Shown here in pieces: positions 17,300-57,225 of a DNA stretch of 64,000 bases. Position numbers and translations under genes: made by a program. The notes beneath the pieces were generated by a model that was not told the DNA's origin, did no database searches, and was given only the letters and a program-made list of their open reading frames with translations. Positions within the stretch are counted from its first letter, which is position 1, and each line of letters opens with the position of its first letter. Source of the DNA: Candidatus Methanoperedens sp. (GTDB lineage: Archaea; Halobacteriota; Methanosarcinia; Methanosarcinales; Methanoperedenaceae); assembly GCA_027460525.1 (NCBI GenBank), contig JAPZAS010000012.1, forward strand, positions 1 to 64,000, read 5' to 3'.

Positions 17300-17405
17300 A
17301 TAAAACAGGTTAATTAGAATGGGTCGAAAATGCAATCAAGTATAAAACGCTTAAAGCATTTCAAATTCTTGAATATAGTAAATTTGTATCACATGAGGTA
17401 AATAA

Positions 17406-18278: not shown

Positions 18279-18286
18279 AATTCCGT

Positions 18287-19477: not shown

Positions 19478-19489
19478 GCTGGTAGCTAT

Positions 19490-20635: not shown

Positions 20636-20668
20636 GGATATTATCATAACTTCAATGAGACGATAAAA

Positions 20669-37069: not shown

Positions 37070-38047
37070 TTGAATATTGGAATTGTAGGCTGTGGTTTAA
37101 TTGGTCAAAAAAGAGCAGCATCTTTAGGTAATAATCTATTAAAGGCGGTTGCAGATGTTTCGCTTGATCGTGCACAAAAATTGGCTTGTTGTTATAAAGA
37201 TGTAAAGTCATTTTCGGATTGGAGAGAACTTGTTGAACTTAATGATATTGACCTGGTGATTGTATCAACAACAAATAACTGGCTCGCGCCTATAACCCTC
37301 GAGGCGGTCGAATCAGGTAAGCATGTTCTTGTAGAAAAACCAGGCGCCTGTCATTTTAAGCAACTTGATCCAGTAATACAAGCTGCAAGAAAAAACATGG
37401 TCAAAGTCAAAGTGGGTTTTAATCTACGCTGCCATCCTTCATTTATAAAGGCTCGTGAAATAGTCAATTCCGGGATTCTTGGGAAATTGATGTTTATTCG
37501 GGGACGCTACGGTCATGGTGGACGCTCAGGCTATGAAAAAGAATGGCGTGCAAATTCAGCCATTTCTGGAGGTGGAGAATTGATAGATCAGGGGGTACAC
37601 ATTATAGATCTTTCACGATGGTTTCTTGGGGATTTCTCACGCGTTTCGGGTTCTGCGCATACTTATTTCTGGAATATGCCTGTGGAAGATAACGGTTTCC
37701 TTCATCTTGAAAACTCTTCGGGAAATGTAGCATGGTTGCAGGTGAGTTGTACAGAATGGAAAAACATGTTTTCGTTTGAAATATATGGTGAAGGTGGAAA
37801 GTTGCAAATTGATGGGCTTGGAGGAAGCTATGGAACAGAAAGGCTAACATTTTATCATATGTTACCTCAGATGGGGCCGCCGGAGACAACAATTTGGGAG
37901 TATCCATTCAATGATACGTCATGGAAAATAGAGTTTGAGGAATTTATAAAAACAATAGAGAGTAATAGTGAGCCGCAACCGGGTCTTAAAGATGCCCGTG
38001 CAGCTTTAGAGATAGTATCGAAAATATATGAGGCCTCGAAAAAATGA
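37070..38047 (+). CDS. Gfo/Idh/MocA family oxidoreductase
   Basis: This 325-residue NAD(P)-dependent oxidoreductase has the N-terminal Rossmann motif IGIVGCGLIGQKRAASL, the EKPGA motif with the catalytic-type lysine (HVLVEKPGACHF) and the second-domain signature GGGELIDQGVHIIDLSRWFLG. Members oxidise or reduce ring hydroxyls of sugars and inositols. I take the TTG at 37070, right after the previous stop, with GGGGGG about nine bases before it; a TTG at 37049 is the alternative. It shares a four-base overlap with the heptose kinase gene. Confidence 0.85.
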   Translation: MNIGIVGCGLIGQKRAASLGNNLLKAVADVSLDRAQKLACCYKDVKSFSDWRELVELNDIDLVIVSTTNNWLAPITLEAVESGKHVLVEKPGACHFKQLDPVIQAARKNMVKVKVGFNLRCHPSFIKAREIVNSGILGKLMFIRGRYGHGGRSGYEKEWRANSAISGGGELIDQGVHIIDLSRWFLGDFSRVSGSAHTYFWNMPVEDNGFLHLENSSGNVAWLQVSCTEWKNMFSFEIYGEGGKLQIDGLGGSYGTERLTFYHMLPQMGPPETTIWEYPFNDTSWKIEFEEFIKTIESNSEPQPGLKDARAALEIVSKIYEASKK

Positions 38048-39027
38048 TAATTACACGCAGTCCACTTCGAATTTCACTTGGCGGTGGAGGTACAGATCTA
38101 CCATCGTACTACCGGGAACACGAAGGGTTTCTGATAGCTGCGGCTATTGATAAGTATGTGTACATCACTTTACATCAAACATTTGTAAATGAGCTTATCA
38201 TAAAATATTCAAAGATAGAGCGTGTATCTGCAATCGATGAAATCCAGCATCCCATCATACGCGAGGCTTTGAGGTTAGTAGGGATACAAAACCTTAACAT
38301 CGAATTAGCGAGCATGGCGGATATCCCGGCAGGCACCGGTTTAGGGTCATCTGGAAGCTTCACATGCTCTTTATTGAAGGCGCTACATGCATACACGAAA
38401 AACCTGATACATCCGAAAGAGCTTGCAGAGCAGGCATGTCACATCGAGATTGATTTGCTAAAAGAACCAATCGGAAAACAGGACCAGTACATATCAGCTT
38501 ATGGAGGTGTCAATTGTTTCAAGTTCTGCAAAAATGATACAGTCGAAGCAAAACCTCTCAAGATATCCGATGAGACGCTTTATAGTCTTGAAGACAACCT
38601 GTTACTTTTTTTCACAGGATATTCAAGATCAGCTTCTGCTATACTTAAAGAACAGGACGATAAAAGCAAACAAAAAGACACATCAATGATAGATAATTTG
38701 CATTTTATTAAGGAAATGGGTTATAAGAGCCAGCAGGCTCTTGAATCAGGGGATCTTGAAGAATTTGCCAGTTTAATGAATATCCACTGGGAACATAAGA
38801 AAAATCGTTCCAGTTCGATGAGCAATAATAAGATCAATGAATGGTATGACATAGCATTGAAAAATGGGGCGCTTGGCGGTAAACTCATCGGTGCAGGTGG
38901 AGGGGGATTTCTCATGTTTTATGCCAACGATAATATGAAGATAAGGCACGCGATGGCGCACGAAGGTTTGAAAGAAGTCCGCTTTAAGTTTGATTTCGAG
39001 GGAAGCAAGGTGGTGGCACAATCATGA
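38044..39027 (+). CDS. hddA: Sugar-1-kinase of the GHMP family, probable heptose 7-phosphate kinase
   Basis: The protein (327 residues) begins RSPLRISLGGGGTDLPSYYREH and has the GHMP ATP loop GTGLGSSGSFTCSLLKAL and the C-terminal GGKLIGAGGGGFLMFY. This pattern is that of D-glycero-alpha-D-manno-heptose 7-phosphate kinases (HddA/WcbL) and the kinase part of L-fucose enzymes. A nucleotidyltransferase, a GmhA-type isomerase and a GmhB-type phosphatase follow directly, so the heptose kinase is the strongest reading. It should give heptose 1,7-bisphosphate. Four-base overlaps occur at both ends. Confidence 0.85.
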   Translation: MIITRSPLRISLGGGGTDLPSYYREHEGFLIAAAIDKYVYITLHQTFVNELIIKYSKIERVSAIDEIQHPIIREALRLVGIQNLNIELASMADIPAGTGLGSSGSFTCSLLKALHAYTKNLIHPKELAEQACHIEIDLLKEPIGKQDQYISAYGGVNCFKFCKNDTVEAKPLKISDETLYSLEDNLLLFFTGYSRSASAILKEQDDKSKQKDTSMIDNLHFIKEMGYKSQQALESGDLEEFASLMNIHWEHKKNRSSSMSNNKINEWYDIALKNGALGGKLIGAGGGGFLMFYANDNMKIRHAMAHEGLKEVRFKFDFEGSKVVAQS

Positions 39028-39743
39028 TGCTGCCTGTGGTTATTCTTACAGGTGGATTGGCAACACGACTTTATCCAGCGACCTTAAAACTCCCAAAATC
39101 CCTCATCAAGGTGGCAGACAAACCGTTCATTTTTCACCAATTAGCTCTTTTGAAGCGGCAGGGTGTTTGTAATGTCATATTATGTGTCAGCAAGTTTGGA
39201 GAGATGATACAGGATTACGTTGGCGATGGGCATGAATGGGGTTTAAAAGTGCAATATTCTTATGACGGCGAAACACTGCTTGGAACTGGCGGGGCGATCA
39301 AAAAGGCAAATCCACTTCTTCCAGAAGTATTTTTGGTTCTATATGGCGATTCCTATCTCGATGTTGACCTGAAGCCAATTCTGGAGAGGTTTGAATGTGA
39401 AGGAAAACCAGCTTTGATGACTGTTTATCATAATAAAAATAAATGGGCTAAAAGCAACATTTTATTCAAGAATGGTCGAGTTGTAAAATACGACAAAAAA
39501 AATCCAATGCCCCAGATGGAGCATCTTGACTATGGAATAAATATCTTGAGAAAATCTATTTTCAATGAGTGGCCGGATGGGATACCCTTTGATCTTTCAG
39601 AGGTATTTATTAAACTCATAGAAAAAGGCGAAGTGTCGGCGTTTGAAGTTTTCAAACGCTTTTACGAAATTGGGTCTATCCAGGGTATAAAAGAAACCGA
39701 GGAATATTTAAATACCAAGCATCAAATTTGTCAAAATATGTGA
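39024..39743 (+). CDS. Sugar-1-phosphate nucleotidyltransferase, probable heptose-1-P guanylyltransferase (HddC-like)
   Basis: The 239-residue enzyme has a single nucleotidyltransferase domain: VVILTGGLATRLYPATLKLPKSLIKVADKPFIFHQ, LLGTGGAIKKA and LVLYGDSYLDVDL. It lacks a beta-helix tail. In bacterial GDP-heptose loci an enzyme of this kind (HddC) transfers GMP to D-glycero-alpha-D-manno-heptose 1-phosphate. Nucleotide specificity cannot be read from the sequence, so the product could also be CDP- or ADP-heptose. The gene lies inside the heptose cassette with short overlaps on both sides. Confidence 0.8.
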   Translation: MMLPVVILTGGLATRLYPATLKLPKSLIKVADKPFIFHQLALLKRQGVCNVILCVSKFGEMIQDYVGDGHEWGLKVQYSYDGETLLGTGGAIKKANPLLPEVFLVLYGDSYLDVDLKPILERFECEGKPALMTVYHNKNKWAKSNILFKNGRVVKYDKKNPMPQMEHLDYGINILRKSIFNEWPDGIPFDLSEVFIKLIEKGEVSAFEVFKRFYEIGSIQGIKETEEYLNTKHQICQNM

Positions 39744-39744
39744 T
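39740..39744 (+). promoter_or_regulatory. Ribosome-binding site GTGAT for gmhA
   Basis: GTGAT lies four bases before the ATG at 39749, within the end of the upstream gene. It supports that ATG over the TTG at 39728. Confidence 0.5.
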
Positions 39745-39748
39745 AGAT

Positions 39749-40354
39749 ATGGAACAGGAAGATTATATTGAAACTTATTTCAAAGATTGTGTTGAAATTA
39801 TAAATCGGATTGACAGGGAACAAATAATAAAAATTTCTGCGATCCTTAAGAAAATCCAACTAAGACAGGGCAGGCTGTTCATCCTTGGTGTAGGCGGAAG
39901 CGCAGGCAATGCATCACATGCTGTTAATGATTTTCGTAAAATTGCAGGTATAGAATCCTATGCTCCCACAGACAACGTTTCTGAACTTACAGCAAGGGTT
40001 AATGATGACGGCTGGGAGACGATATTTGTTAACTGGCTCAAAGGCAGCCGATTGAACACCAAAGATGGTATCCTTGTATTCTCAGTCGGCGGAGGGAATG
40101 CTGAAAAAAACGTGAGCGTTAACCTTGTCAAAGCATTACAATATGCCAAAGATGCTGGTGCAAGTATTATGGGAATCGTAGGACGTGACGGCGGATACAC
40201 TGCAAAGGTAGCAGATGCCTGCATCATAATCCCTCCCGTGAACGATGAAACCATCACGCCTCAAACTGAAGCATTCCAGGCAGTCGTCTGGCATTTACTG
40301 GTTTCCAGTCCTGATATGAAGAAATATGAAATGAAATGGGAGAGTACAAGGTAA
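39749..40354 (+). CDS. gmhA: Sedoheptulose 7-phosphate isomerase
   Basis: This SIS-domain protein of about 201 residues matches GmhA: FILGVGGSAGNASHAVNDFRKIAG, then FSVGGGNAEKNVSVNLVKAL and VGRDGGYTAKVADACIIIPP. GmhA turns sedoheptulose 7-phosphate into D-glycero-D-manno-heptose 7-phosphate, the entry step of heptose synthesis. The ATG at 39749 is chosen over a TTG at 39728 because of the GTGAT site. It is followed 12 bases later by the phosphatase gene. Confidence 0.88.
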   Translation: MEQEDYIETYFKDCVEIINRIDREQIIKISAILKKIQLRQGRLFILGVGGSAGNASHAVNDFRKIAGIESYAPTDNVSELTARVNDDGWETIFVNWLKGSRLNTKDGILVFSVGGGNAEKNVSVNLVKALQYAKDAGASIMGIVGRDGGYTAKVADACIIIPPVNDETITPQTEAFQAVVWHLLVSSPDMKKYEMKWESTR

Positions 40355-40366
40355 CAGGCGGCACGA

Positions 40367-40945
40367 ATGGCAGATGCTGTTTTCCTGGATAGGGATGGCG
40401 TGCTTAACGAGCTTGTATTAAATCCTGCGACTGGAGAGTATGAGCCTCCACATCGTATAGGGGATATGAAACTTTTTCCTTATGTGTTTGAATGCCTTGG
40501 AAAAATCCAAAATGCAGGGTATGATCTGTTTCTCGTCTCCAACCAGCCGGATTATGCTAAAGGGAAAACTACACTTGAAGCCTTAGAAAAAGTCCACAAC
40601 AAATTTGACCAATTGTTAACTTCTAAGGGAATATATTTTAAGGAATACTATTACTGCTATCATCATCCTCAAGGGATAATACCTGAATATTCTTACGAAT
40701 GTATGTGCCGCAAACCAAAGCCGTTCTTCCTTTTTAAAGCAGAAGAAAATTATAATATCGAGCTTGGGAGTTCATGGATGATTGGAGATCGGGATATAGA
40801 TATCGAATGCGGCAAAGCTGCTGGCACGAAAACAATATTAATAGAGGAGCCATTATCTATGAATAAACGCGGGAATAGTATGCCTGACCATAAGGTAAAA
40901 GATCTGATAGAAGCAGTGGAGATAATAATTCAAATAAATGGATAA
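40367..40945 (+). CDS. gmhB: D-glycero-D-manno-heptose 1,7-bisphosphate 7-phosphatase
   Basis: This HAD-IIIA phosphatase (192 residues) has FLDRDGVLNELVLNP at the nucleophile, LVSNQPDYAKG, the zinc-loop region YYYCYHHPQG...YECMCRKPKP and MIGDRDIDIECG. These are the GmhB features. It removes the 7-phosphate after the kinase has added a 1-phosphate. Its position between gmhA and a transaldolase supports the heptose pathway. The gap to the transaldolase gene is 38 bases and contains a strong Shine-Dalgarno sequence. Confidence 0.88.
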   Translation: MADAVFLDRDGVLNELVLNPATGEYEPPHRIGDMKLFPYVFECLGKIQNAGYDLFLVSNQPDYAKGKTTLEALEKVHNKFDQLLTSKGIYFKEYYYCYHHPQGIIPEYSYECMCRKPKPFFLFKAEENYNIELGSSWMIGDRDIDIECGKAAGTKTILIEEPLSMNKRGNSMPDHKVKDLIEAVEIIIQING

Positions 40946-40983
40946 AAAATAATATTAAAATATCAGAAGGAGACGAGGAAATT

Positions 40984-41700
40984 ATGAAAGGATCAAAACA
41001 ATTTAAAATAAAACTATATGCAGACGGCGCAGATCTGAAAGGAATGATAGAGGTTTACAATGAAGGGATTGTTAGTGGTTTCACAACAAATCCTACATTA
41101 ATGAAAAAAGCTGGTGTTAAGAACTATGAAGAATTCGCAAAATCTGCCATAAAAGCAATTCCAGACCTCCCAATTTCATTTGAAGTATTCTCGGATGATT
41201 TGGAAGGCATGGAGAGAGAAGCTCGCAAGATCGCAAGCTGGGGCGAAAAAGCTTACATAAAGATACCTGTTACAAATACTAAAGGAAAAAGCACAGCTTC
41301 CCTGGTGAAAAAACTGTCATATGATGGGTTAAAGCTCAATGTAACTGCCATCTTAACGACCGAGCAGGTAAAACAAGTTTCTAATGCTCTTTCACCTGCA
41401 ACCCCAAGTATAGTTTCGGTATTTGCGGGGCGTATAGCAGATACTGGCAGGGATCCTATGCCGATAATGAAAGAGGCAGTGAACATATTGAAATCGAACA
41501 CGAAATCGGAACTATTATGGGCGAGTACAAGGGAATTGCTGAATCTTGTGCAGGCTGAATCGTGCGGATGCCATATCATTACAATTACCAATGATATATT
41601 GAAAAAGGTCCCAATGCTTGGGAAGGATCTTAAGGAATTGTCGCTGGATACGGTGAAAATGTTCTATAATGATGCACAAGGGGCGGGTTACAAAATTTGA
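40984..41700 (+). CDS. Transaldolase, short (TalC/FSA-type) form
   Basis: This 238-residue TIM-barrel enzyme has the family start FKIKLYADGADLKGMIEVYNEGIVSGFTTNPTLM and the Schiff-base lysine in AYIKIPVTN. It also has LNVTAILTTEQV, SVFAGRIADTGRDP and LWASTRE. Transaldolases form sedoheptulose 7-phosphate from fructose 6-phosphate and erythrose 4-phosphate. Directly behind gmhB this would supply the substrate of GmhA. The ATG follows AAGGAGACGAGG, one of the strongest ribosome-binding sites in the window. It ends 23 bases from the convergent GtrA gene. Confidence 0.9.
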   Translation: MKGSKQFKIKLYADGADLKGMIEVYNEGIVSGFTTNPTLMKKAGVKNYEEFAKSAIKAIPDLPISFEVFSDDLEGMEREARKIASWGEKAYIKIPVTNTKGKSTASLVKKLSYDGLKLNVTAILTTEQVKQVSNALSPATPSIVSVFAGRIADTGRDPMPIMKEAVNILKSNTKSELLWASTRELLNLVQAESCGCHIITITNDILKKVPMLGKDLKELSLDTVKMFYNDAQGAGYKI

Positions 41701-45905: not shown

Positions 45906-46664
45906 ATGATATATCCCCCATCAAAAAGTAAAGTTGCATTAATTACGGGTGGATCAAGAGGAATAGGGCGGGAATGTGCGATCGCACTTGCCAAACGTGG
46001 ATATAAGATAGCGATCAATTATTTTAGAAATAATGAGCTGGCGGTCGAAACGCAGAAAAAAATCGACAAAATCGGTGTTGATACATATTGCGTCAGGGCA
46101 GATATATCAGACAAACGTCAGGTGAAAGATATGATAGAGACGGTATTAAATAAGTTTGATCATATTGATGTTCTAGTTAATAATGCAGGAATATCTGAAA
46201 TTAAGCCCATAGAGGATATTGATGAAGAGAGTTGGGATCATATGATGGACATAAATCTGAAAGGGACTTTCTTTTGTTCACAGATGGTTTTGAAGCACAT
46301 GAAGGAACAGCGCAAAGGGCGGATCATAAGCATCGCTTCCCAGGCAGGGCAAACCGGCGGGATTTTCATTGGTGCCCACTATTCGGCATCCAAAGCGGGT
46401 ATTATTTGCTTGACGAAAACCCTCGCTAAAATCGGAGCACCTTTCGGGATTCTCGTGAATTGCGTATCGCCTGGACTTATTGAGACAGATATGGCGGTGG
46501 ACTATCCTGAAAATGTGAAGCAAAATTTGATTGATTCCATACCCCTTGGAAGAATGGGACAGCCCGGCGAAGTAGCAAGTGTTGTGGCATTTTTGGCTTC
46601 TGAGGAAGCCAGTTATATAACAGGGGCCAATATACCTGTGAATGGCGGTATGTTCATGCCATGA
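45906..46664 (+). CDS. Short-chain dehydrogenase/reductase (FabG-like)
   Basis: This classical SDR of 252 residues has ALITGGSRGIGRECAIAL, VNNAGISEI, the Ser of ISIASQAG and Y-x3-K in AHYSASKAGII, and ends GANIPVNGGMFMP. FabG-like sequence does not mean fatty-acid synthesis here, since it opens a module with a KdsB-like cytidylyltransferase, an alcohol dehydrogenase and two 2-hydroxyacid dehydrogenases. It probably reduces a keto sugar acid or its precursor. GAGGT lies before the ATG, after a 234-base gap with a possible TATA element (TTTATACATTTAAA). Confidence 0.85.
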   Translation: MIYPPSKSKVALITGGSRGIGRECAIALAKRGYKIAINYFRNNELAVETQKKIDKIGVDTYCVRADISDKRQVKDMIETVLNKFDHIDVLVNNAGISEIKPIEDIDEESWDHMMDINLKGTFFCSQMVLKHMKEQRKGRIISIASQAGQTGGIFIGAHYSASKAGIICLTKTLAKIGAPFGILVNCVSPGLIETDMAVDYPENVKQNLIDSIPLGRMGQPGEVASVVAFLASEEASYITGANIPVNGGMFMP

Positions 46665-46722
46665 TGTTGATTATCTTATAATAAAATTTGGAGAAAAATA
46701 AAAATATAGAGGAGGAAATGAA

Positions 46723-47472
46723 ATGAAAGTCATTGGTATGATACCAGCTAGGATGGGTTCTTCAAGATTTCCCGGCAAACCCCTGGAAAAGATACTCGGT
46801 ATTCCCATGGTGGAGCATGTTTATAAAAGGTCTGAAATGAGCCAGAAACTAAATGGGTTATTCGTAGCCACCCCAGATAAAGAAATCATGGAAATTGTGG
46901 AGGGTTTTGGCGGCGAAGCAATAATGACTTCACCCCTTCATGACAGGTGCACTGACAGGATTGCTGAAGCAATGGAAAATATTGAAGCAGACATTGTTGT
47001 AAATATACAGGGAGATGAACCCATGCTATATCCCGATATTATTGATATGAGCGTAAAGCCGCTTATTGAAGATGATTCTATTTTGTGCAGCAATCCAATA
47101 GTAAAGATTCATGATATTGATACGTTCAATGATCGCAATCAAATAAAAGTGGTCTGCAACCAGAAGAGTTTCATTATGTTTATGTCACGTGAGCCGATTC
47201 CTACTATGGTTCGAATGGGTAGAAAAATTCCTATGTTAAAGCAGGTCTGCATAATGCCTTTTAGGAAGGATTTTTTGGTCACCTATAACCATTTACCCCA
47301 AACACCACTTGAAAAAGCTGAATCGGTTGATATGCTCCGTGTTCTAGAAAATGGATATCAGATAAAAGCTGTAGAGGTACCCTCCGAGACTTTTAGTGTT
47401 GATACTCCCCAGGATTTGATGAAGGTGGAAAAATTGATGAAGAATGACCCACTGGTAGAAAAATATATATGA
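46723..47472 (+). CDS. KdsB-like CMP-sugar-acid cytidylyltransferase
   Basis: The 249-residue enzyme matches 3-deoxy-manno-octulosonate cytidylyltransferase: VIGMIPARMGSSRFPGKPLEKILGIPMVEHVYKR, MTSPLHDRCTDRIAEA and VVNIQGDEPMLYPDII. The usual KdsB motif after the kinase-like part, YFSR, is FMSREPIPT here. It should activate a 3-deoxy-ulosonic acid or similar sugar acid with CMP. Archaea have no lipopolysaccharide Kdo, so the substrate is probably a different acid. GAGGAGG lies just before the ATG. It is separate from the NeuA-type enzyme at 20669. Confidence 0.88.
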   Translation: MKVIGMIPARMGSSRFPGKPLEKILGIPMVEHVYKRSEMSQKLNGLFVATPDKEIMEIVEGFGGEAIMTSPLHDRCTDRIAEAMENIEADIVVNIQGDEPMLYPDIIDMSVKPLIEDDSILCSNPIVKIHDIDTFNDRNQIKVVCNQKSFIMFMSREPIPTMVRMGRKIPMLKQVCIMPFRKDFLVTYNHLPQTPLEKAESVDMLRVLENGYQIKAVEVPSETFSVDTPQDLMKVEKLMKNDPLVEKYI

Positions 47473-47491
47473 ATAATACAGGTACAAATAA

Positions 47492-48526
47492 ATGTTAGCT
47501 CTTGTAAAAACCAAGAAAGGAACTGGTAACATCGATCTCATAGATGTTGAAATCCCAAGGATTGGTGTGAACGAGGTATTGATAAAAGTCCAGGCAGCCG
47601 GCATCTGCGGGACTGATATACATGTAAAAAATGATGAATTTCCATACTGGCCACCGGTAATCCTTGGGCATGAATTTTCCGGAAATATTATTGAGATAGG
47701 TTCCGATGTCAAAGATTACCGGATAAATGACCGGGTTGTTGCCGAGCCGCACACGCTAGCATGCGGTAAATGTTATTATTGCAGAACCGGGAACATACAG
47801 ATATGTTCATCCAAGAGATCCATCGGCTGGGGGATTGATGGTGCTTTTGCAGAATATATCAAGATGCCTGAGAGATTGTTGCACAGAATACCCGATAATA
47901 TCTCTTATGAAAATGCTGCTGTAGTTGAACCCACAGCCAATGTTGTCCATGATGTACTGGAGCGGGGGAAGATTGAACCGCAGGATTTCGTCGTGGTCCT
48001 GGGTCCAGGCCCGATAGGCCTTCTCGCCGCCATGGCCGCCAAAGCTCAGGGTGCAAGGGAAGTTGCCATTGTGGGAACTCCTGAAGATGAAAACTTGCGC
48101 CTCAAAATCGCTAAGGATGTTGGGATAGATTATGTGATCAATCTCGCAGAGGAAGATCCGTTAAGCAGGATCCTCGAATTAACCGATAACAATGGAGCGG
48201 ATCTTGTCGTGGAAGCGAGCGGGGCCGAGCCGGCAATTAATATGGCAGTTAATATCGTCCGAAAAAAAGGCAGGATTACAGTGATAGGAATGACCGGCAA
48301 GAAAAAGATAGAAGTCCTCTGGGATACAGCCATCTTCAAGGCATGTGATGTCCTTTTCAATTTTTCCACAAGCTACACAAGTTGGAATAGGGCTATCAGC
48401 ATGATCGGGCAGGGAAAAATAAATATTGGCGCCATTATCACTCACCGCGAACCTCTTGCAAATTGGGAGAAAGCTTTTGATGCTGTCGAAAATAAAAAAG
48501 CAATCAAAGCGCTACTTATTCCATGA
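47492..48526 (+). CDS. Zinc-type alcohol/polyol dehydrogenase
   Basis: This medium-chain dehydrogenase (344 residues) has the catalytic zinc ligands in GICGTDIH and LGHEFSG, the structural zinc set CGKCYYCRTGNIQIC and the NAD motif VVVLGPGPIGLLAAMAAKAQGA. Sorbitol, threonine and sugar-alcohol dehydrogenases share this layout. Within the KdsB module it probably oxidises a polyol or sugar-acid hydroxyl. It follows the cytidylyltransferase by 19 bases. Confidence 0.88.
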   Translation: MLALVKTKKGTGNIDLIDVEIPRIGVNEVLIKVQAAGICGTDIHVKNDEFPYWPPVILGHEFSGNIIEIGSDVKDYRINDRVVAEPHTLACGKCYYCRTGNIQICSSKRSIGWGIDGAFAEYIKMPERLLHRIPDNISYENAAVVEPTANVVHDVLERGKIEPQDFVVVLGPGPIGLLAAMAAKAQGAREVAIVGTPEDENLRLKIAKDVGIDYVINLAEEDPLSRILELTDNNGADLVVEASGAEPAINMAVNIVRKKGRITVIGMTGKKKIEVLWDTAIFKACDVLFNFSTSYTSWNRAISMIGQGKINIGAIITHREPLANWEKAFDAVENKKAIKALLIP

Positions 48527-48545
48527 AATAATACAAGGCAATTCT

Positions 48546-49352
48546 ATGAAATTGAGCTTGGTTCTGACACCTGAAAAAACCACTTTTGCTCCACTTCTTT
48601 TCGCTGGTGATATGGAAAAAGGTATTAAAAAGGCAGCAGAACTTGGTTACGATGGTGTGGAACTCAATATCCGGGATCCACTACAAATTGAAAAAGATAA
48701 ACTCATACAGTCGGTGCACTCAAATGGATTGGAAGTGGTGGCTCTGGGTACTGGGCAGGCTTACATCAAGGACGGCCTGAGTCTGGCAAATCCAGATCCG
48801 GGTATCAGATTTAGAACAATAAATAGGCTAAAGGATCATATCAATCTGGCGCAATACTTGGGCGCCCAGGTGGTGATTGGTGGAATAAGGGGGAGGTTCA
48901 GTTCGGATGAAGCCAGGAGGATTGAATACGAGAGCTCATTAAGCGCTATGCTCGAATGCATCAAGTTCGCAAATGAGCTTGGTGTAACCCTTACCGTTGA
49001 GCCAATCAACCGGTATGAAACGAACTTCATTAATACAATTGAAGAAGGGCTGTCCTTTTTGTGTGACCTGAACGATAATAATGTCAAGTTGCTCGCAGAT
49101 ACTTTTCATATGAATATAGAAGAGACATCATTCACAAAAAGCTTAAAAGCAGCAGGGAATAAACTGAGCCATATACATTTAGTAGATAGCAACCGCTTAG
49201 CCCCAGGAAAAGGCCATACCGACTTTTGCAACATTATAAAAGCACTTCGCGATATAAAGTACAAGGGTTATTTGTCGGCTGAAATCCTTCCAGACCCGGA
49301 CAGCGAGACCGCTGCGAGAACATACATTAATTATGTGAGGAAATTACTATAG
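48546..49352 (+). CDS. Sugar phosphate isomerase/epimerase (AP-endonuclease-2-like TIM barrel)
   Basis: The product of 268 residues is a xylose-isomerase-like TIM barrel: KLSLVLTPEKTTFAPLLFAG, AAELGYDGVELNIRD, GVTLTVEPINRYETNF with the metal-binding Glu, LLADTFHMNIEE and LSHIHLVDSNRLAPGKGHTDF. Metal ligands E, D and H are where the family has them. Relatives include hydroxypyruvate isomerase and 3-ketose epimerases. The next two genes are 2-hydroxyacid dehydrogenases, so a small keto acid could be the substrate. The ATG at 48546 is used; the frame upstream overlaps the previous gene. Confidence 0.85.
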   Translation: MKLSLVLTPEKTTFAPLLFAGDMEKGIKKAAELGYDGVELNIRDPLQIEKDKLIQSVHSNGLEVVALGTGQAYIKDGLSLANPDPGIRFRTINRLKDHINLAQYLGAQVVIGGIRGRFSSDEARRIEYESSLSAMLECIKFANELGVTLTVEPINRYETNFINTIEEGLSFLCDLNDNNVKLLADTFHMNIEETSFTKSLKAAGNKLSHIHLVDSNRLAPGKGHTDFCNIIKALRDIKYKGYLSAEILPDPDSETAARTYINYVRKLL

Positions 49353-49386
49353 AATCATGTATCAATTTTCCAGGAGATACTTGTAA

Positions 49387-50403
49387 ATGAAAATTAGTAT
49401 TACCGACTGCGACCACGGTTTCTTTGATCCTGAAAAAAAAGTCATCGAAGGAGCCGGACATATTTTAAACATTCTTCAGTGTAAAACACCTGAAGAAGTT
49501 GTACGGGCAGCCCATGATGCAGATGCGATCATATGTCAATATGCCCCGATCAATAAAGATGTATTGCAATCAATGCCAAAATGCAGGGTTGTGGGTCGTT
49601 ATGGGGTTGGTCTGGATAATATAGATATTGAAGCTGCCACAGACCTTGGGATCAAAATTGTTCATACGCCTTATTTTTGTTTCCAGGAAGTAGCAGATCA
49701 TACAATGGGATTGATATTGGCTTTGGCAAGACAGATCGTCAGTATGAACAATTTAATAAAATCAAATCGTGGTAAAAGCGGGATGAACTATGGTAATATG
49801 TTGAGCTACATGAAGAATGTCGAAAGACCGACAAAACAGATAATTGGCATAATTGGCTTTGGCAAGGCAGGAAAAGAGATAGCCAAACGGGCTATGAGTT
49901 TTGGGTTCAAGGTCATTGCATTCGATCCTTATATACCGCCTGAAATATTTGCCGCTCATGGTGTTTGTAAGGTTTCGCTTGAAGAGTTGGTAAGGAAATC
50001 TGACATAGTCACCTTGCATGCTCCATTGACAGATGAAACAAGAGGGATGATTGATAAAACGGTTTTGGCCCAGATGAAGCCGACAGCATATTTAGTAAAT
50101 ACCGCTCGGGGGGCAATCGTGAATGAAACCGCACTTATTGAAGCATTGGAAAACAATTATATCGCAGGGGCTGCACTGGATGTTACCGAAAAAGAACCTA
50201 TTTCAAATAATCACCCATTCCTGAGAATGGATAATGTACTTTTAACCCCGCATATCAGTTTTTATTCAAACACATCAATTCAAGATATGAAAACGAAAGT
50301 AGCTCAATATACTGTCAATGCTCTTAGAGGCCAGGGGGAATATGCATTAGCTAATCCCAAAGTCCTTAAAAATACCCAAGATTTCATTATATGGCATACC
50401 TAA
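49387..50403 (+). CDS. D-2-hydroxyacid dehydrogenase, copy 1
   Basis: This NAD-dependent enzyme of 338 residues belongs to the phosphoglycerate dehydrogenase family. It has VVGRYGVGLDNIDIEAA, the Rossmann motif IGIIGFGKAGKEIAKRA, the catalytic Arg in NTARGAIVNE, Glu in TEKEPI and His in TPHISFYS. It carries no C-terminal regulatory domain. It interconverts a 2-keto acid and a D-2-hydroxy acid, and the specific acid is unknown. It is followed after a 42-base gap by a related but clearly different copy, so the two probably act on different intermediates. Confidence 0.9.
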   Translation: MKISITDCDHGFFDPEKKVIEGAGHILNILQCKTPEEVVRAAHDADAIICQYAPINKDVLQSMPKCRVVGRYGVGLDNIDIEAATDLGIKIVHTPYFCFQEVADHTMGLILALARQIVSMNNLIKSNRGKSGMNYGNMLSYMKNVERPTKQIIGIIGFGKAGKEIAKRAMSFGFKVIAFDPYIPPEIFAAHGVCKVSLEELVRKSDIVTLHAPLTDETRGMIDKTVLAQMKPTAYLVNTARGAIVNETALIEALENNYIAGAALDVTEKEPISNNHPFLRMDNVLLTPHISFYSNTSIQDMKTKVAQYTVNALRGQGEYALANPKVLKNTQDFIIWHT

Positions 50404-50445
50404 ATACGTAAGTGATATAAATGTGTATATTATAATGGGGAATAT

Positions 50446-51375
50446 ATGAAAATCTTAATTTCAAGTGACTCATTTGGAAAGATCAACAGAGAATCCATAA
50501 AAACTATCGAAGCCGCTGGATTTGAACCTGTCCTTAACCCATATGGCAGGAAGCTTGAGTTCGGGGAATTTGTTAGGCTTATCAAGGATGCTGTGGGTCT
50601 GATCGCAGGGACCGAAAAGATTACATCTGAATTGCTCGAAAATGCTCCTATTTTAAAGGTCATATCCAGGTACGGTGTCGGGATGGATAATATTGATATG
50701 AAGGCTACAGAAAAATTGGGAATAACAGTACGAAATACACCTGATGCGCCGTCCCAGGCCGTAGCTGAACTTACTCTTGCGTTGATATTGAATCTATACA
50801 GGCGGGTGAGTGAAGCCGATAGAAATATCAAGAACAATAACTGGTCACCGTTGATGGGCAGGCTTCTTTCAGGAAAAACACTGGGTATTATCGGCCTTGG
50901 AAGGATAGGAAAAAAATTGGTAAAACTCATCCAGCCATTCAATATGAAAATATATGCGTATGATCCTTATCCTGACAACGAATTTGTCTCATCACACAAT
51001 ATTACTCTGGCATCATTGGATATCGTCATGTCCAAAAGTGACATAATATCCCTTCATGTGCCACTATCTGATAAGACGTATCACATGATCGGGAAAAAGG
51101 AACTATCTTTAATGAAAAAGGACGGTGTAATAATCAATACTTCACGTGGTGGCCTGATAGATGAAGAAGCCCTATTGATTGCTTTAAAAAATGAATCTAT
51201 AGAAGGTGCCGCTATCGATACTTTTGAAAAGGAACCCTATAAGGGTGATTTGACAGATTTCAATAATGTTATTTTGACATGTCATATGGGTTCATCGGCA
51301 ATAGAAACGCGCAAACAAATGGAATTGGAAACAGTGAAAAACCTGATCGACGCATTGAAGGAGAAAGGGATATGA
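50446..51375 (+). CDS. D-2-hydroxyacid dehydrogenase, copy 2
   Basis: This second member of the phosphoglycerate dehydrogenase family has 309 residues. It has VISRYGVGMDNIDMKAT, LGIIGLGRIGKKLVKLI, the catalytic Arg in NTSRGGLIDE, Glu in FEKEPY and His in TCHMGSSAIETR. It keeps the GxGxxG site and, like copy 1, has no ACT or regulatory domain. Its stop overlaps the ATG of the epimerase gene by four bases. The side-by-side pair in a sugar cluster is unusual and is discussed with the KdsB module. Confidence 0.9.
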   Translation: MKILISSDSFGKINRESIKTIEAAGFEPVLNPYGRKLEFGEFVRLIKDAVGLIAGTEKITSELLENAPILKVISRYGVGMDNIDMKATEKLGITVRNTPDAPSQAVAELTLALILNLYRRVSEADRNIKNNNWSPLMGRLLSGKTLGIIGLGRIGKKLVKLIQPFNMKIYAYDPYPDNEFVSSHNITLASLDIVMSKSDIISLHVPLSDKTYHMIGKKELSLMKKDGVIINTSRGGLIDEEALLIALKNESIEGAAIDTFEKEPYKGDLTDFNNVILTCHMGSSAIETRKQMELETVKNLIDALKEKGI

Positions 51376-52280
51376 AAGCAGTAGTCTTTGGCGGGTCAGG
51401 TTTTCTTGGAAGTCATCTTGCGGATGCATTGCTGAAGGAGGGATACAAGGTGGCTATTTTTGACATAACATCATCTCTCTACCTGCAAAAAGAACAGAAA
51501 ATGATAGTTGGGGATATCCTTGACAGAGAAGAAGTAAAAATGGCTGTAAAGGGCAGCGATGTTGTGTATAATTTCGCGGGTATAGCAGACCTTGAAAAAG
51601 CTAAAGAAAATCCTGTCAAGACTGTTGAAACCAATATACTGGGCAACACAATCATTCTGGACGCCTGCAGGGAATACAATATCAAAAGGTTTGTCTTTGC
51701 AAGCAGTCTGTATGTCTATAGTAAAGAAGGCTCATTTTACAGGAGCAGTAAACAGGCTTGTGAATTAATAACAGAAAACTATCACGAGGATTACGGGCTG
51801 CCTTATACTATCCTCAGATACGGTTCACTGTACGGTCCGAGAGCGGATGAAAATAACTTTATCCACAGGATATTGAACCAGGCAATCGCTGAAGGCAAGA
51901 TTACGCGCTACGGAGACGGCGAGGAATTAAGAGAATATATACATGTCGAGGATGCAGCAAGATGCAGCGTTGATATTCTTTCAAAGGAGTTTGAAAATGA
52001 ATATGTAATACTCACAGGCTATCAGCAGATGAAAATTAGAAATCTCCTGACAATGATCAATGAAATGCTCGGGAATCGATTGGAAATAGAATACCTTCCA
52101 GCTAAATCAAATCTGCACTATGAAATAACACCCTACTCTTTCAGCCCGAAAATTGCGAAAAAATATGTCAGTAAGTATTATCTCGATATCGGTCAGGGGC
52201 TATTACAATGCATTGAGGAAACATACAGGAAACAACATAGATATAAAGAGGTCAGCGGCCTGTTAATGCGGGATGAATGA
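51372..52280 (+). CDS. NAD-dependent epimerase/dehydratase
   Basis: This extended SDR of 302 residues has VVFGGSGFLGSHLADALL, VYNFAGIADLEKAK, FASSLYVYSKEG and Y-x3-K in SFYRSSKQACEL, followed by LRYGSLYGPRADENNF and GDGEELREYIHVEDAA. It is a nucleotide-sugar epimerase-like enzyme. Its last ~78 bases and the following HAD start recur at 53941-54025, downstream of the radical SAM gene. The original operon therefore ran from this gene straight into the HAD gene with a four-base ATGA overlap. Confidence 0.87.
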   Translation: MKAVVFGGSGFLGSHLADALLKEGYKVAIFDITSSLYLQKEQKMIVGDILDREEVKMAVKGSDVVYNFAGIADLEKAKENPVKTVETNILGNTIILDACREYNIKRFVFASSLYVYSKEGSFYRSSKQACELITENYHEDYGLPYTILRYGSLYGPRADENNFIHRILNQAIAEGKITRYGDGEELREYIHVEDAARCSVDILSKEFENEYVILTGYQQMKIRNLLTMINEMLGNRLEIEYLPAKSNLHYEITPYSFSPKIAKKYVSKYYLDIGQGLLQCIEETYRKQHRYKEVSGLLMRDE

Positions 52281-52285
52281 AAGTG
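52203..52285 (+). repeat. Direct repeat A flanking the radical SAM gene
   Basis: This segment is the end of the epimerase gene (from TTACAATGCATTGAGG) through ATGAATGAAAGTG. It matches 53941-54025 at nearly every position, apart from a two-base length difference and about ten substitutions. The intact coding sense of this copy shows that it is the original 3' end. The HAD-like start that follows it is decayed. Confidence 0.85.
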
Positions 52286-52410
52286 TCAATGATCGATTTT
52301 AGGTTGAAAAGGGGAAAATGAAAACCGTCAGGTTCATATCGAAGGTTTAATTTGATATGGGATATATATTGAATCTAATTGCAAAACTAAAATATAAAAT
52401 TTGAGGAATT

Positions 52411-53940
52411 ATGCATACTAAAAATCTAAAAGACAAACCAAACACTAATGAATCTTCCAAGTTTAAAGTTCTTTTAATTTATGCAAATAAAATGATGGAA
52501 AACCTTATTTCGATAAATGTTTCAATATTATCTGCAGCATTAAAACAACATGGTTTTGATGTAAAACTTTTTGATACCACATTTTATCGCACTGAAGATG
52601 AAAGTGTATATGATATACGAGTAAATAACTTACAAGTTAGAAAATTTGATTTGTCATCATATGGTATTAAAATAAATGATTCCGATATACATGAAGATCT
52701 AATAAAATTAGTTGAAGAGTATAAGCCAAATTTAGTAGGATTATCAGCCGTCGAAGAAACATATCTTTTAGGTTTATCGCTATTAAAAAGTATTAAAAGC
52801 AACTTTAATATTCCTACCATTGTTGGGGGAGTTCATACTATTTTTTCACCAGAGGAAGTTTTAGCTCAAGATGATGTGGATATGATATGCATTGGTGAAG
52901 GTGAAGAAGCGTTAGTAGAATTGTGTCAAAAAATGCAAAATGGTGAAGATTACTATAAGGTTAAAAACATTTGGTTTAAAAAAGATGGCGTTGCAGTCAA
53001 AAATCCACGCAGAGATCTTATGCCATTAAAGGATTTGCCGTTCCTTGATTTTTCAATATATGATAAAAGGCGTATGTATCGTCCAATGCAGGGTAAAATA
53101 TATAAAATGCTTCCTATCGAATCAAGTCGCGGTTGTCCTTATACCTGTACTTATTGTAGTGCATCAACTCTAAGAAAACTATATTCAAATCTGGGTAATT
53201 ATTATAGGAGAAAAAGTGTTGAGCAAATTATAAAAGAAATCCAACATTATCGCAAACAATATGGTTTAGATTTCGTATATTTTACTTCAGAATCATTTTT
53301 ATCTATGCCAGATAATGAGTTTGAAAACTTTGTTGAATTGTATAGTGAAATTAAATTACCATTTTGGTTGCAAACTCGACCAGAATCAATAACAAAAGAA
53401 AGAATCAAGAAACTAGAAACTATTAATTGTAATCGTATTTCTGTTGGGTTAGAAAGTGGAAATGAACAATTACGAAAAAAGATGTTAAAACGTAATATTT
53501 CTAATCAACAAATAATAGAATCTCTGGATGTTTTTAAACACTCGAAAATACCACTTAGTGTTAATAGCATGATTGGATTTCCAGACGAAACACGCGAACA
53601 GATATTTGATACAATAAATTTAAATAGGATTATTAATGCGGATAGTTCAAGCCTATTTATATATACGCCATATCGCGGATCAGAGTTAAGGCAGTATTGT
53701 ATAGAAAAGGGGTATGTTAAGCCAGATTTACTTATGGGATCAGTTTTTCAAAACTCAATACTAAAAATGCCACAAATTACAAACGATGAGATAAAAGGGT
53801 TGTTTAGAACATTCTCGCTATATATTAAACTTCCAGAGGAATACTATCCCGATATACAAATAGCGGAAAAATTTGATAAACGGGGTAATGAAATGTTTGA
53901 ACATTTAAGCAAAGTATATGTAGATGAATTTTTTAAATAA
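52411..53940 (+). CDS. Cobalamin-binding radical SAM protein, copy 2
   Basis: This 509-residue paralogue of the gene at 29335 has a B12-type N-terminal domain (VLLIYANKMMENLISINVSI, TIVGGVHTIFSPEEV, IGEGEEALVELC). Its radical SAM core has SRGCPYTCTYCSAS near 241-248, then WLQTRPESIT and MIGFPDETREQIFDTINL. The gene is A/T-rich and sits between two copies of an ~84-bp direct repeat, so it is an insertion in the epimerase-HAD operon. The substrate is unknown; carbon methylation or rearrangement of a sugar or lipid is a family-based guess. Confidence 0.85.
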   Translation: MHTKNLKDKPNTNESSKFKVLLIYANKMMENLISINVSILSAALKQHGFDVKLFDTTFYRTEDESVYDIRVNNLQVRKFDLSSYGIKINDSDIHEDLIKLVEEYKPNLVGLSAVEETYLLGLSLLKSIKSNFNIPTIVGGVHTIFSPEEVLAQDDVDMICIGEGEEALVELCQKMQNGEDYYKVKNIWFKKDGVAVKNPRRDLMPLKDLPFLDFSIYDKRRMYRPMQGKIYKMLPIESSRGCPYTCTYCSASTLRKLYSNLGNYYRRKSVEQIIKEIQHYRKQYGLDFVYFTSESFLSMPDNEFENFVELYSEIKLPFWLQTRPESITKERIKKLETINCNRISVGLESGNEQLRKKMLKRNISNQQIIESLDVFKHSKIPLSVNSMIGFPDETREQIFDTINLNRIINADSSSLFIYTPYRGSELRQYCIEKGYVKPDLLMGSVFQNSILKMPQITNDEIKGLFRTFSLYIKLPEEYYPDIQIAEKFDKRGNEMFEHLSKVYVDEFFK

Positions 53941-54025
53941 TTGCAATGCACTGAGGAAACATACAAAGAAACAACAAAAAATATAAAGAGGTCAGCGGTC
54001 TGTTAATGTGGAATGAATGAAAGTG
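53941..54025 (+). repeat. Direct repeat B flanking the radical SAM gene
   Basis: This is a degenerate second copy of the epimerase 3' end with a two-base length change that breaks its frame (compare TACAAAGAAACAACAAAAAA here with TACAGGAAACAACATAG at repeat A). It runs into the true HAD start at 54017. It is the scar of the event that placed the radical SAM gene here. Confidence 0.85.
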
Positions 54026-54655
54026 GTCAGTGCAATAATATTTGATTTTGACGGAGTTATCATAGAATCCTTTGATATAAAGACGCAAGCATTCAGGGAA
54101 TTATTTAAGATGTATCCCGATGAAGTGGATGAAATAGTTGAATATCATCAGCAAAACGGCGGCGTCTCAAGGTATAAGAAATTCAAGCATATTTATAGCC
54201 AGATACTGAAGAAGCCTCTTGATGAGAAGACCTGCATGGAGCTTGGCAAAAAATTCTCAAGCCTTGTTGTGGAAGCGGTTAAAAAATGTTCCTATGTTCC
54301 CGGAGCGCTTGAATTCATTCATGAGAAATCCAGAATAATGAAATTATTTGTGGCTTCAGGAACACCTGAAGATGAATTACAATCCATTATGAGTGCAAGG
54401 GGGATTTCCAAATATTTCAAAGGGATTTATGGAAGTCCAGCCACGAAATCGGAAATAATATATGGAATTCTAAAAAGAGAGAATATCGAAAGGAAAGATG
54501 CTATTTTTATAGGGGATACAATAACGGATTACAATGAAGCGTGCAAGGTCGGTGTGCCGTTCATGGCAAGGATAAATACATTAACAAACAATCCATTGCT
54601 GAAACTTGCCGTCCCAAAATTCCATGATTTTTATGAACTCAACGCCAGAATATAA
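54017..54655 (+). CDS. HAD-superfamily phosphatase (phosphoglycolate-phosphatase-like)
   Basis: This 212-residue HAD enzyme of subfamily I has the nucleophile loop AIIFDFDGVIIESFDI, a helical cap (FRELFKMYPDEVDEI), the Thr-type motif VASGTPEDEL, the lysine in GSPATKSEII and IGDTITDYNEA. It probably removes phosphate from a sugar or sugar acid of the module, before activation by the KdsB-like enzyme. It overlaps the direct repeat at its start. The 3' end overlaps the start of the cyclase gene if the longer start is used there. Confidence 0.85.
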   Translation: MKVVSAIIFDFDGVIIESFDIKTQAFRELFKMYPDEVDEIVEYHQQNGGVSRYKKFKHIYSQILKKPLDEKTCMELGKKFSSLVVEAVKKCSYVPGALEFIHEKSRIMKLFVASGTPEDELQSIMSARGISKYFKGIYGSPATKSEIIYGILKRENIERKDAIFIGDTITDYNEACKVGVPFMARINTLTNNPLLKLAVPKFHDFYELNARI

Positions 54656-55328
54656 AATGCTTTCATATCCAATCAAAGCTGGCATGCCTTTGTACGGGGA
54701 TACTCCTGAACCCTGTATAAAACCTCAAAGCCGGATCGCAAAGGGTTATATAAGCAATAGTTATATGATCTCGGTTCACAATCATACGGGCACGCATGTC
54801 GATGCTCCGAACCATTTTATTGACAATGGAAAAACCATATCACAGTACTCGTTGGATGAACTCATATTCAAAAATCCGGTGATCATCGATTGCCCGAAGG
54901 ACAGCGCAACTCTGATAAATCCGGATGATCTGAGGCATGCTTCACAAAAGCTTCGAATAGGGGATTGCCTGCTTTTGCGTACAGGGTTCGGGCGGTTCAG
55001 AGGGGAAGAAAAATATCGGACTCACAACCCAGGCATTTCACCGGAGACGATTGTATGGATTAGGAAATATTATCCAGGGGTTCGATGCATCGGTATAGAT
55101 AGCATTTCAATATCTTCATTCCAGCACAGGAATGAAGGGCGGGAAGCCCACAGAGCAGCATTCATCGAACAAAAGGGACTTGGAAAACCTTTGTTGTTGA
55201 TTGAGGATATGAATATTGATATACTATCGGGCGAAAGTATCGAGATGATGATTGTACTCCCATGGCAGATTGATGGATTAGATAGTGCACCTTGTAATAT
55301 AATAGGAAGTATTAAAGATAGATTATAA
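54633..55328 (+). CDS. Cyclase-family metal hydrolase (kynurenine-formamidase-like)
   Basis: This ~231-residue enzyme of the PF04199 family has the signature HNHTGTHVDAPNHF, a Zn/Mn site, and the late RNEGREAHRAAFIEQKG. The front SYPIKAGMPLYGDTPEP is typical. Characterised members hydrolyse N-formyl bonds or open lactones and cyclic esters. In this module it might act on a sugar lactone; that is inferred. The start is uncertain: ATG 54633 keeps the first strand complete, while ATG 54657 leaves a one-base gap to the HAD stop. Confidence 0.8.
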   Translation: MNSTPEYKMLSYPIKAGMPLYGDTPEPCIKPQSRIAKGYISNSYMISVHNHTGTHVDAPNHFIDNGKTISQYSLDELIFKNPVIIDCPKDSATLINPDDLRHASQKLRIGDCLLLRTGFGRFRGEEKYRTHNPGISPETIVWIRKYYPGVRCIGIDSISISSFQHRNEGREAHRAAFIEQKGLGKPLLLIEDMNIDILSGESIEMMIVLPWQIDGLDSAPCNIIGSIKDRL

Positions 55329-55329
55329 T

Positions 55330-57225
55330 GTGGCAAAGATAATGGAATATATGCAAAAAGATCGTTTGGTGTTGATATTTCCTCATAAAGATACTTCAAC
55401 ATTAAAACACATGTTTCCTAAAGATAACTTGACTCCATGGGTATATTTGGGTCAAAATTTCTCGAAAAAACATTGCTTGGAAAAAGAATTAGGAAGTAGT
55501 TTCAGGTATGTCGATATCACAAGACTTCATGATCAAGTTGCCAGGGATTTAAGGCATGAATACGTTCGGTGGATTGATAACCTGAATGAACAGTATGGAA
55601 ATAATCTTGAATGGTGGTTTGGGTCCATTTCTTCCAGGAATCCTTACATCAGCAGTATATTTCAGTATTGCTGCTATCTGGAGATACTGGAAAGATTATG
55701 GACAGACAAGGATAAACGACCCGGGTTAATAATTGTTGAATCCGTAGGATTGGCGGAAGCGATCCGGAAATGGTCCTCCAATAAAAACATTGAAATAAAA
55801 ATTATCCAGTATAATTATGCAAGACTTAAGTCTTTTATATCCAATTCATTTTTTTTTCTCAGATGGGGAAATTTTTTTGTTGTTCTGTTATTGCGTTGGG
55901 TAACAGCTTACACCACAAGGAAAAAATATTATTCAAACAAACATAATGAGAATCCCTCTGTAATTGTGAGCACCTTTCTTCATGATTACTGCTTATCAGA
56001 TGATGGAGCCTTTAAAGACCGTTATTTTCCTCATCTCCACGAATATTTATCAGAAAAAGGAATGATAACTATTGTTCATCCAGTACTTTCAGGTTTCGGG
56101 TACAACTATTTTTCAATTTATAGAAAGATGCGAAAAAGCAACACTCGTTTTATTGTGCAAGAAGACTTCCTGCATTTTTCAGATTATCTATGTGCTCTCA
56201 TTTATCCGTTAAAAGTTATAAGGCAGGAGATTAAACCAGTTTTATTTCATAATTTTAATATTTACGACATATTAAAGGAAGAAAAAAAACAAAACTCGAT
56301 TACCTGTGGCATGGAAGCTGTTTTAATTTACCATCTGTTTTTACGGCTGGGAAAATCAGAATTAAGTCCTAAAATAATCATTGATTGGTATGAAAACCAT
56401 GTTATTGATAAGGCATTAATTATCGGTGCTCGCAAGGTGTTCCCAAAAGCAAAAATTATCGGAGCACAGATATTTGTCGCGAGTCATAATTTTATCAGCG
56501 TGTTCCCGTCCCAATCAGAAGTGGATGCGCATATTGTTCCGGATCTTTTACTTGAAACAAGCAAATATCGATGTCAGATCGCTCAATCATTTACTAAGGA
56601 CATTCCCTGCAAATCTGCCGCTGCACTGAGATATTCGCATATTTTTAGTGATGAAAGTATATCGAATCAAAGTTTAGATCAAAAATCACAAAAAATCTTA
56701 GTGCTCTTGCCAGGTATCATCGATGAAGCTGTTGAATTATTGGTAACATTAAAGGAAGTACTGGAACAAACAAGTGATGAGATAATGATCAAAGGACATC
56801 CGGATTATACTCCCGAAGAATTGAGGCGTGCTTTTGGAGAAGGAGAGTGGCCGGACAGATTTGAGATTTTTAACGGTGCTCTGCCGGATGCTTTGAATAG
56901 GGCATCTGTGGTGATATCATCAAACTCAAGCTCCATGGTAGAAGCGGCAGCAAAAGGGATACCAGTTATTTTTCTTGGAAGACAAACGGTACTTAATAAT
57001 AATATACTTTCCGACCTAAATATGGATATTGTGACTGAGTGCTTCTCAGTTCCCGAATTGGTTAAAGCTATTGATAAGTATCTAAATATATCTCCGAATG
57101 AAAAAATTATATACAAAGAAATGGGCAGAAAAGTGCGTGATCTTTTCTTTGAACCTGTGAATGAGGATACCTTATTGCCTTTCCTGGGGATAGAGAAGGA
57201 TATAAAATGCAAACCAGAATACTGA
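55330..57225 (+). CDS. Surface-carbohydrate transferase, GT-B-like
   Basis: This is a large protein of 631 residues. A short hydrophobic patch near 180 (FFVVLLLRWVTAY) may touch the membrane. The C-terminal half has LVLLPGIIDEAVELLVTL, IMIKGHPDYTPEELR and ISSNSSSMVEAAAKGIPVIFLGRQ. The last two are the GT-B donor-binding loops found in capsule transferases such as KpsC-like proteins and in LIC12162-type enzymes. The first half matches nothing that I recognise. It is probably a glycosyltransferase for the glycan, perhaps for a CMP-linked acid. GTG 55330 is the longest start; ATG 55342 and 55351 are alternatives. Confidence 0.65.
   Translation: MAKIMEYMQKDRLVLIFPHKDTSTLKHMFPKDNLTPWVYLGQNFSKKHCLEKELGSSFRYVDITRLHDQVARDLRHEYVRWIDNLNEQYGNNLEWWFGSISSRNPYISSIFQYCCYLEILERLWTDKDKRPGLIIVESVGLAEAIRKWSSNKNIEIKIIQYNYARLKSFISNSFFFLRWGNFFVVLLLRWVTAYTTRKKYYSNKHNENPSVIVSTFLHDYCLSDDGAFKDRYFPHLHEYLSEKGMITIVHPVLSGFGYNYFSIYRKMRKSNTRFIVQEDFLHFSDYLCALIYPLKVIRQEIKPVLFHNFNIYDILKEEKKQNSITCGMEAVLIYHLFLRLGKSELSPKIIIDWYENHVIDKALIIGARKVFPKAKIIGAQIFVASHNFISVFPSQSEVDAHIVPDLLLETSKYRCQIAQSFTKDIPCKSAAALRYSHIFSDESISNQSLDQKSQKILVLLPGIIDEAVELLVTLKEVLEQTSDEIMIKGHPDYTPEELRRAFGEGEWPDRFEIFNGALPDALNRASVVISSNSSSMVEAAAKGIPVIFLGRQTVLNNNILSDLNMDIVTECFSVPELVKAIDKYLNISPNEKIIYKEMGRKVRDLFFEPVNEDTLLPFLGIEKDIKCKPEY

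Follow-up and report, generated by a model that had tools for sequence, protein, structure and literature searches.

A KdsB-like gene cluster in Candidatus Methanoperedens with a probable role in making a non-Kdo, CMP-activated 2-ulosonic acid

Introduction

Enzymes of the KdsB family activate the anomeric hydroxyls of ulosonic acids, as in the pathway (KdsD-KdsA-KdsC-KdsB) to cytidine monophosphate (CMP)-activated 3-deoxy-D-manno-octulosonic acid (Kdo). Here we describe a run of eleven genes around a KdsB-like synthetase in the archaeon Candidatus Methanoperedens sp. (assembly GCA_027460525.1, contig JAPZAS010000012.1, positions 1 to 64,000 of the forward strand; this whole stretch of 64,000 nucleotides is called the window below). 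The run shares with the CMP-Kdo pathway the KdsB fold family, the residues for CTP and metal and, as proposed here, a CMP-ulosonic acid for surface glycans, but the window genome has neither a KdsA-family synthase nor LpxC, and its KdsB belongs to a separate clade with other acid-side residues and other partner genes.

The CMP-nonulosonic pathways (NeuB/NeuA, legionaminic, pseudaminic and keto-deoxynononic acid, Kdn) likewise yield a CMP-activated 2-keto acid sugar, and a product of this kind is known in archaea from the legionaminic acid of Halorubrum (PMC6137143). They differ in that the module described here contains no phosphoenolpyruvate-dependent NeuB-type synthase, has a synthetase of KdsB type rather than NeuA type, and in its relatives includes an HpcH aldolase, which the window lacks. 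A third comparison is with the L-gluconate/D-tagaturonate systems IolO and LguG + LguD, which also pair a hexonate dehydrogenase with an IolO-family 5-ketohexonate epimerase. In Luteolibacter such a pair turns L-gluconate into D-tagaturonate via 5-keto-L-gluconate (PMC12632266). These systems are catabolic, whereas the window pair lies inside a locus for CMP-sugars and glycosyltransferases.

Pathways to CMP-ulosonic acids are thus already known, but this module is apparently unstudied; literature searches, whose coverage left out most subscription journals, found no description of it. On balance we favour the reading that the cluster supplies an archaeal surface glycan with a 2-ulosonic acid that is activated with CMP and is not Kdo, namely a hex-2-ulosonate reached by a hexonate route.

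The window KdsB is set apart from Kdo-type enzymes

The window KdsB exceeds the cut-off of the NF009905 subfamily (290 bits against 255), falls just below that of the TIGR00466 kdsB equivalog (150.6 against 155.2) and reaches 168.5 against a cut-off of 281 for NF003948. The equivalog score alone is a weak test, since L044, a member of the same module, barely passes TIGR00466 at 157.6; the Kdo-type enzyme of the archaeal locus L039 scores 211.7.

To place the enzyme, relatives were taken from its own phylum, from the phylum of a delta-proteobacterial metagenome-assembled genome (MAG) and from one beta-proteobacterial MAG, and were compared with lower-ranking KdsB proteins and four solved KdsB structures. 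A scan of the contig set with KdsB gave only two relatives, and the survey therefore draws on searches of whole genomes from two phyla. In a maximum-likelihood tree, 30 proteins including that of the window separate from 27 Kdo-type proteins with branch support 100/98, a split that is not blind, the labels having been taken from score rank and neighbourhood.

The residues of the active site point the same way. The CTP loop and the metal aspartates are kept in the window protein (R10, R15, K19, D98 and D227). Differences lie in the C-terminal domain, the Kdo-binding part of described KdsB enzymes: at columns 176, 178 and 202-204 the window has C176, M178 and V202 D203 M204 and the module clade has C, I/M and VDM, versus G, Y and LEQ in the controls (27/27 for each). 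Column 174 (H to Q) was dropped as a diagnostic residue, because the Kdo-type L039 enzyme also has Q.

L039 comes from an archaeon of the same order. Its KdsB has the control signature and is adjoined by KdsA, KdsD and KdsC, so that Kdo-type and module-type KdsB both occur in archaea and are separable by sequence and by neighbours. The complete KdsB-KdsA-KdsD-KdsC set (L039:9647-12842) scores above the NCBIfam cut-offs for KdsA and for the subfamilies KpsF and KdsC; the presence of Kdo in an archaeon would be unexpected.

The host is a methanogenic or methane-oxidising archaeon, given the methyl-coenzyme M reductase alpha subunit (McrA) in its genome and an archaea-specific threonyl-tRNA synthetase editing domain (tRNA-Thr_ED) within the window. 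The genome (2.44 Mb, 99.5% complete) holds one full-length KdsB-like gene. Searches of the whole genome found no LpxC, which stands for the lipid A pathway to which Kdo usually goes, no member of the KdsA/DAHP_synth_1 family, for which a control search was positive in 11/14 genomes, and no HpcH/HpaI aldolase; the aldolase and synthase absences cover families PF03328 and PF00793. Given an archaeal host without LpxC, without the KdsA/DAHP-synthase family and without the HpcH/HpaI aldolase, standard CMP-Kdo synthesis is very unlikely. An earlier note, made from the letters of the window, had observed that KdsA and KdsD are missing from the run and had proposed that KdsB activates a different acid. 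The first point extends, for the KdsA family, to the entire genome, and the second, activation of a non-Kdo acid, is well supported by these absences, the separate clade and the changed acid-side residues.

Composition of the gene cluster

All eleven genes lie on the + strand at 45906-57225, with short gaps or overlaps:

45906..46664, + strand: SDR1, FabG/gluconate-5-dehydrogenase-like short-chain dehydrogenase (Pfam PF13561, E 5e-65)
46723..47472, + strand: KdsB-like CMP-acid synthetase (CTP_transf_3, PF02348), non-Kdo clade
47492..48526, + strand: ADH, zinc medium-chain dehydrogenase resembling Tdh/idonate-5-dehydrogenase (PF08240/PF00107)
48546..49352, + strand: IolO-like TIM-barrel 5-keto-L-gluconate/D-tagaturonate epimerase (NF041099)
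49387..50403, + strand: HADH1, D-2-hydroxyacid dehydrogenase, window-specific (PF02826/PF00389)
50446..51375, + strand: HADH2, D-2-hydroxyacid dehydrogenase resembling phosphoglycerate dehydrogenase/glyoxylate reductase, conserved module gene (PDB 1wwk, E 9e-68)
51372..52280, + strand: Epim, extended short-chain dehydrogenase (NAD-dependent epimerase/dehydratase), conserved module gene (PF01370, E 2e-47)
52411..53940, + strand: B12-binding radical SAM protein (PF04055 and PF02310; CxxxCxxC present)
54017..54655, + strand: HAD-superfamily phosphatase, conserved module gene (PF13419)
54606..55328, + strand: Cyc, hydrolase of the PF04199 cyclase/arylformamidase fold (E 4e-28)
55330..57225, + strand: orf631, probable GT-B-like glycosyltransferase

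The 5' end of Epim shares 4 bases with HADH2, the Cyc reading frame overlaps the HAD gene, and orf631 begins one base past Cyc. Catalytic motifs are legible in the SDR (YxxxK), the zinc ADH (Cys/GHE), the IolO-like protein (Glu/Asp/His/Glu), the 2-hydroxyacid dehydrogenases (Arg/Glu/His), HAD (DxD) and Cyc (HxGTHxD). The genes named in the earlier note are real and in place, and Pfam and NCBIfam bear out their names; its list had passed over Epim and the radical SAM protein, both inside its span, and orf631 just after it. The lactone opening that it ascribed to the cyclase is a conjecture from the fold family and was not borne out further.

No Pfam family matches orf631. In a fold comparison that used the C-terminal domain alone, the predicted structure of this domain is similar to GT-B nucleotide-sugar domains, with KpsC among the matches, and orf631 is probably the glycosyltransferase for the acid.

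Conserved partners of the KdsB clade

We tallied neighbours within 8 kb of KdsB in 28 module-type loci (the window excluded), which span Archaea and Proteobacteria, and in 26 control KdsB loci. An HpcH aldolase lies near KdsB in 23/28 module loci versus 0/26 controls, Epim and HAD each in 17/28 versus 0/26, and HADH2 in 15/28 versus 2/26. The HpcH association persists when the loci of one lineage of close relatives are counted once (15/20 versus 0/26, Fisher p 3e-8). The B12-radical SAM protein (5/28), Cyc (4/28, every one archaeal) and orf631 homologues (7/28, mainly in archaea) are additions in archaeal members. SDR1 lies beside KdsB in six loci (L035, L036, L045, L091, L092 and L103), while ADH, the IolO-like gene and HADH1 do so in 0/28.

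The clustering is not due to chance, since other genomes also have several of these genes next to a KdsB of this clade. A conserved core had been anticipated, and HADH2, Epim, HAD and Cyc do recur with the clade rather than lying scattered without KdsB. ADH, the IolO isomerase and HADH1, which had been counted among its parts, are instead a local variant, and the HpcH pyruvate-type aldolase, the usual partner elsewhere and missing here, had not been foreseen.

The nearest relatives of the window cluster are the HpcH-KdsB-HADH2-Epim-HAD operons (L032-L034, L044, L085-L089 and L093-L102). They have an orthologous KdsB, most have HADH2, Epim and HAD, and some carry the B12-radical SAM protein, Cyc and orf631 as the window does; they differ from it in having the HpcH aldolase where the window has ADH, IolO, HADH1 and SDR1. 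In the lineage L093-L102 the gene order is HpcH-Epim-KdsB-acetyltransferase-HAD, L095 excepted, and flagellar genes adjoin this operon in L096 and L098 (in L098 by Pfam), which suggests a link to flagellin glycosylation. On an alphaproteobacterial plasmid of Acuticoccus sp. I52.16.1 (L049), genes for an aldolase, a cytidylyltransferase, a phosphoglycerate-dehydrogenase-like protein, HAD and Epim are consecutive; the synthetase there is of NeuA type, not KdsB type.

A second subtype (L045, L091, L092 and L103) replaces Epim with SDR1 and an AroB-related putative cyclase, and has HpcH near KdsB in L045 and L091. The AroB-related protein at L045:14908-16017 is a putative sugar-phosphate cyclase (TIGR04425), found likewise near KdsB in the other three loci. 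This dehydroquinate (DHQ)-synthase-like subtype may use a carbocyclic or cyclised precursor.

None of the 80 KdsB-bearing viral contigs has the tested module genes nearby, and the KdsB neighbourhoods of Streptomyces and Fusobacterium hold kdsA-SIS or unrelated genes. One of these, a kdsA-SIS-kdsB operon on a plasmid of Streptomyces sp. NBC_00963 (L047:7551-9726), belongs to an actinomycete, an organism without lipopolysaccharide. We read the KdsB clade of the window as part of a widespread, uncharacterised module for CMP-2-ulosonic acids.

A proposed hexonate route to the activated acid

With the archaeal members the window shares the genes for KdsB, HADH2, Epim, radical SAM, HAD, Cyc and orf631, but the aldolase is missing from it; in its place are ADH, IolO, HADH1 and SDR1. 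These four look like a kit to oxidise, epimerise and reduce hexonates, because the IolO-like protein passes its curated cut-off (321.5 bits against 300 for NF041099), retains its metal ligands when compared with TM_0416 (PDB 2zvr, E 4e-62), and has a precedent in the Luteolibacter pair (PMC12632266). Its relatives in the same phylum, on plasmids and in viral contigs share at most 37% identity with it. ADH is a candidate C5 hexonate dehydrogenase.

In the proposed route, oxidation and reduction of hexonates at C5 would fall to ADH and SDR1, and epimerisation of the 5-keto intermediate at C4 to the IolO-type enzyme. HADH1 would interconvert hydroxyl and ketone at C2 to give a hex-2-ulosonate, which KdsB would activate with CTP and orf631 would transfer. 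HADH2, Epim, HAD, Cyc and the radical SAM protein could serve in tailoring or precursor supply, a guess. In the relatives the HpcH aldolase would assemble the 2-keto acid, a task that redox and epimerisation of hexonates would take over here. HpcH/HpaI aldolases are known to couple glyceraldehyde or erythrose with either pyruvate or hydroxypyruvate (PMC7610986), and both routes can therefore end in 2-ulosonic acids. We set aside glycerate and other simple hydroxy acids as CMP-activated products, since the KdsB family acts on anomeric hydroxyls of ulosonic acids.

Several points weigh against this interpretation. What is particular to the window is seen in a single genome, and the hex-2-ulosonate is a putative product; ADH, IolO and HADH1 accompany KdsB in this genome alone and could serve another sugar of the locus. 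ADH and both HADHs score under the listed NCBIfam equivalog cut-offs, and SDR1 reaches broad subfamily cut-offs only, with no equivalog among those listed. The orf631 model is of low confidence (mean pLDDT 40, the first two thirds poor), our search found no characterised enzyme of this KdsB clade, and a pyruvate aldolase outside PF03328 and PF00793 could supply the acid.

This last point leads to the alternative that survives best, though we consider it doubtful: an aldolase other than PF03328, encoded elsewhere in the genome, would make an ordinary 3-deoxy-2-ulosonic acid (C6 to C9) from pyruvate for KdsB to activate, while ADH, IolO, HADH1 and SDR1 would make another sugar of the same glycan. 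It agrees with the HpcH aldolase being the usual partner of the clade (23/28), with pyruvate as the normal HpcH substrate (PMC7610986) and with the genes for several further sugars in the locus. It fits less well with a genome from which both HpcH and a KdsA-type synthase are missing, and with the interleaving of the four extra genes with KdsB and HADH2 in a single co-directional run.

Slightly less probable still is a core acid that is non-deoxy everywhere, with HADH2 and HAD supplying hydroxypyruvate, HpcH forming a 2-ulosonic acid from it and an aldehyde, and the window arriving at an acid of this kind by interconverting hexonates. HADH2 is nearest to phosphoglycerate dehydrogenase and glyoxylate reductase, hydroxypyruvate is accepted by 19 HpcH-family enzymes (PMC7610986), and the two routes would converge on 2-ulosonic acids; but in the lineage L093-L102 KdsB has no HADH2 in its vicinity, and no phosphatase specificity is known for HAD. 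A standard Kdo (or Kdn) enzyme is highly improbable: the NF009905 score and the Kdo genes of L039 speak for it, but KdsA, KdsD and KdsC are not nearby, the clade and acid-side residues are others, the genome is without a KdsA-family synthase and LpxC, and the window NeuB has its own cytidylyltransferase-phosphatase fusion.

The surrounding glycan locus

The run sits within a large surface-glycan locus. This KdsB is missing from the genome sampled in its own genus and from the one sampled in its family, indicating that the locus is variable. Downstream of the run lie genes for a CDP-glucose 4,6-dehydratase and a glucose-1-phosphate cytidylyltransferase. Upstream, at 38044-41700, are an HddA-like kinase, a nucleotidyltransferase, SIS and HAD proteins and a transaldolase above the TIGR02134 cut-off; this is a heptose-type pathway, in which the transaldolase perhaps supplies sedoheptulose 7-phosphate.

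Further upstream (16310-21820) is a second ulosonic-acid-like set, consisting of an epimerase, NeuB, a DegT aminotransferase, an iron-dependent alcohol dehydrogenase (Fe-ADH) and a cytidylyltransferase fused to a KdsC/Kdn-9-phosphatase. Its NeuB (17406-18275) is 28 kb from the run. The aminotransferase and Fe-ADH recall the KdnA/KdnB pair of 8-amino-Kdo. Two B12-binding radical SAM proteins, at 29335-30822 and 52411-53940, occur in this one archaeal surface-glycan locus.

Implications

Curated naming models call members of this clade CMP-Kdo enzymes, which leads to a wrong prediction of Kdo in archaea and in bacterial flagellar and O-antigen-like loci. A bolder generalisation, which we regard as unlikely in this full form, is that the clade marks a widespread class of non-deoxy (or, in the DHQ-synthase subtype, carbocyclic) CMP-2-ulosonic surface acids in Archaea and Proteobacteria, made with an aldolase in most lineages and with a hexonate redox/epimerase loop here, so that two different chemistries would yield one kind of activated acid. 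If the proposed pathway is correct, an unrecognised CMP-activated sugar acid would be common to archaea and bacteria and would have two separate supply routes.

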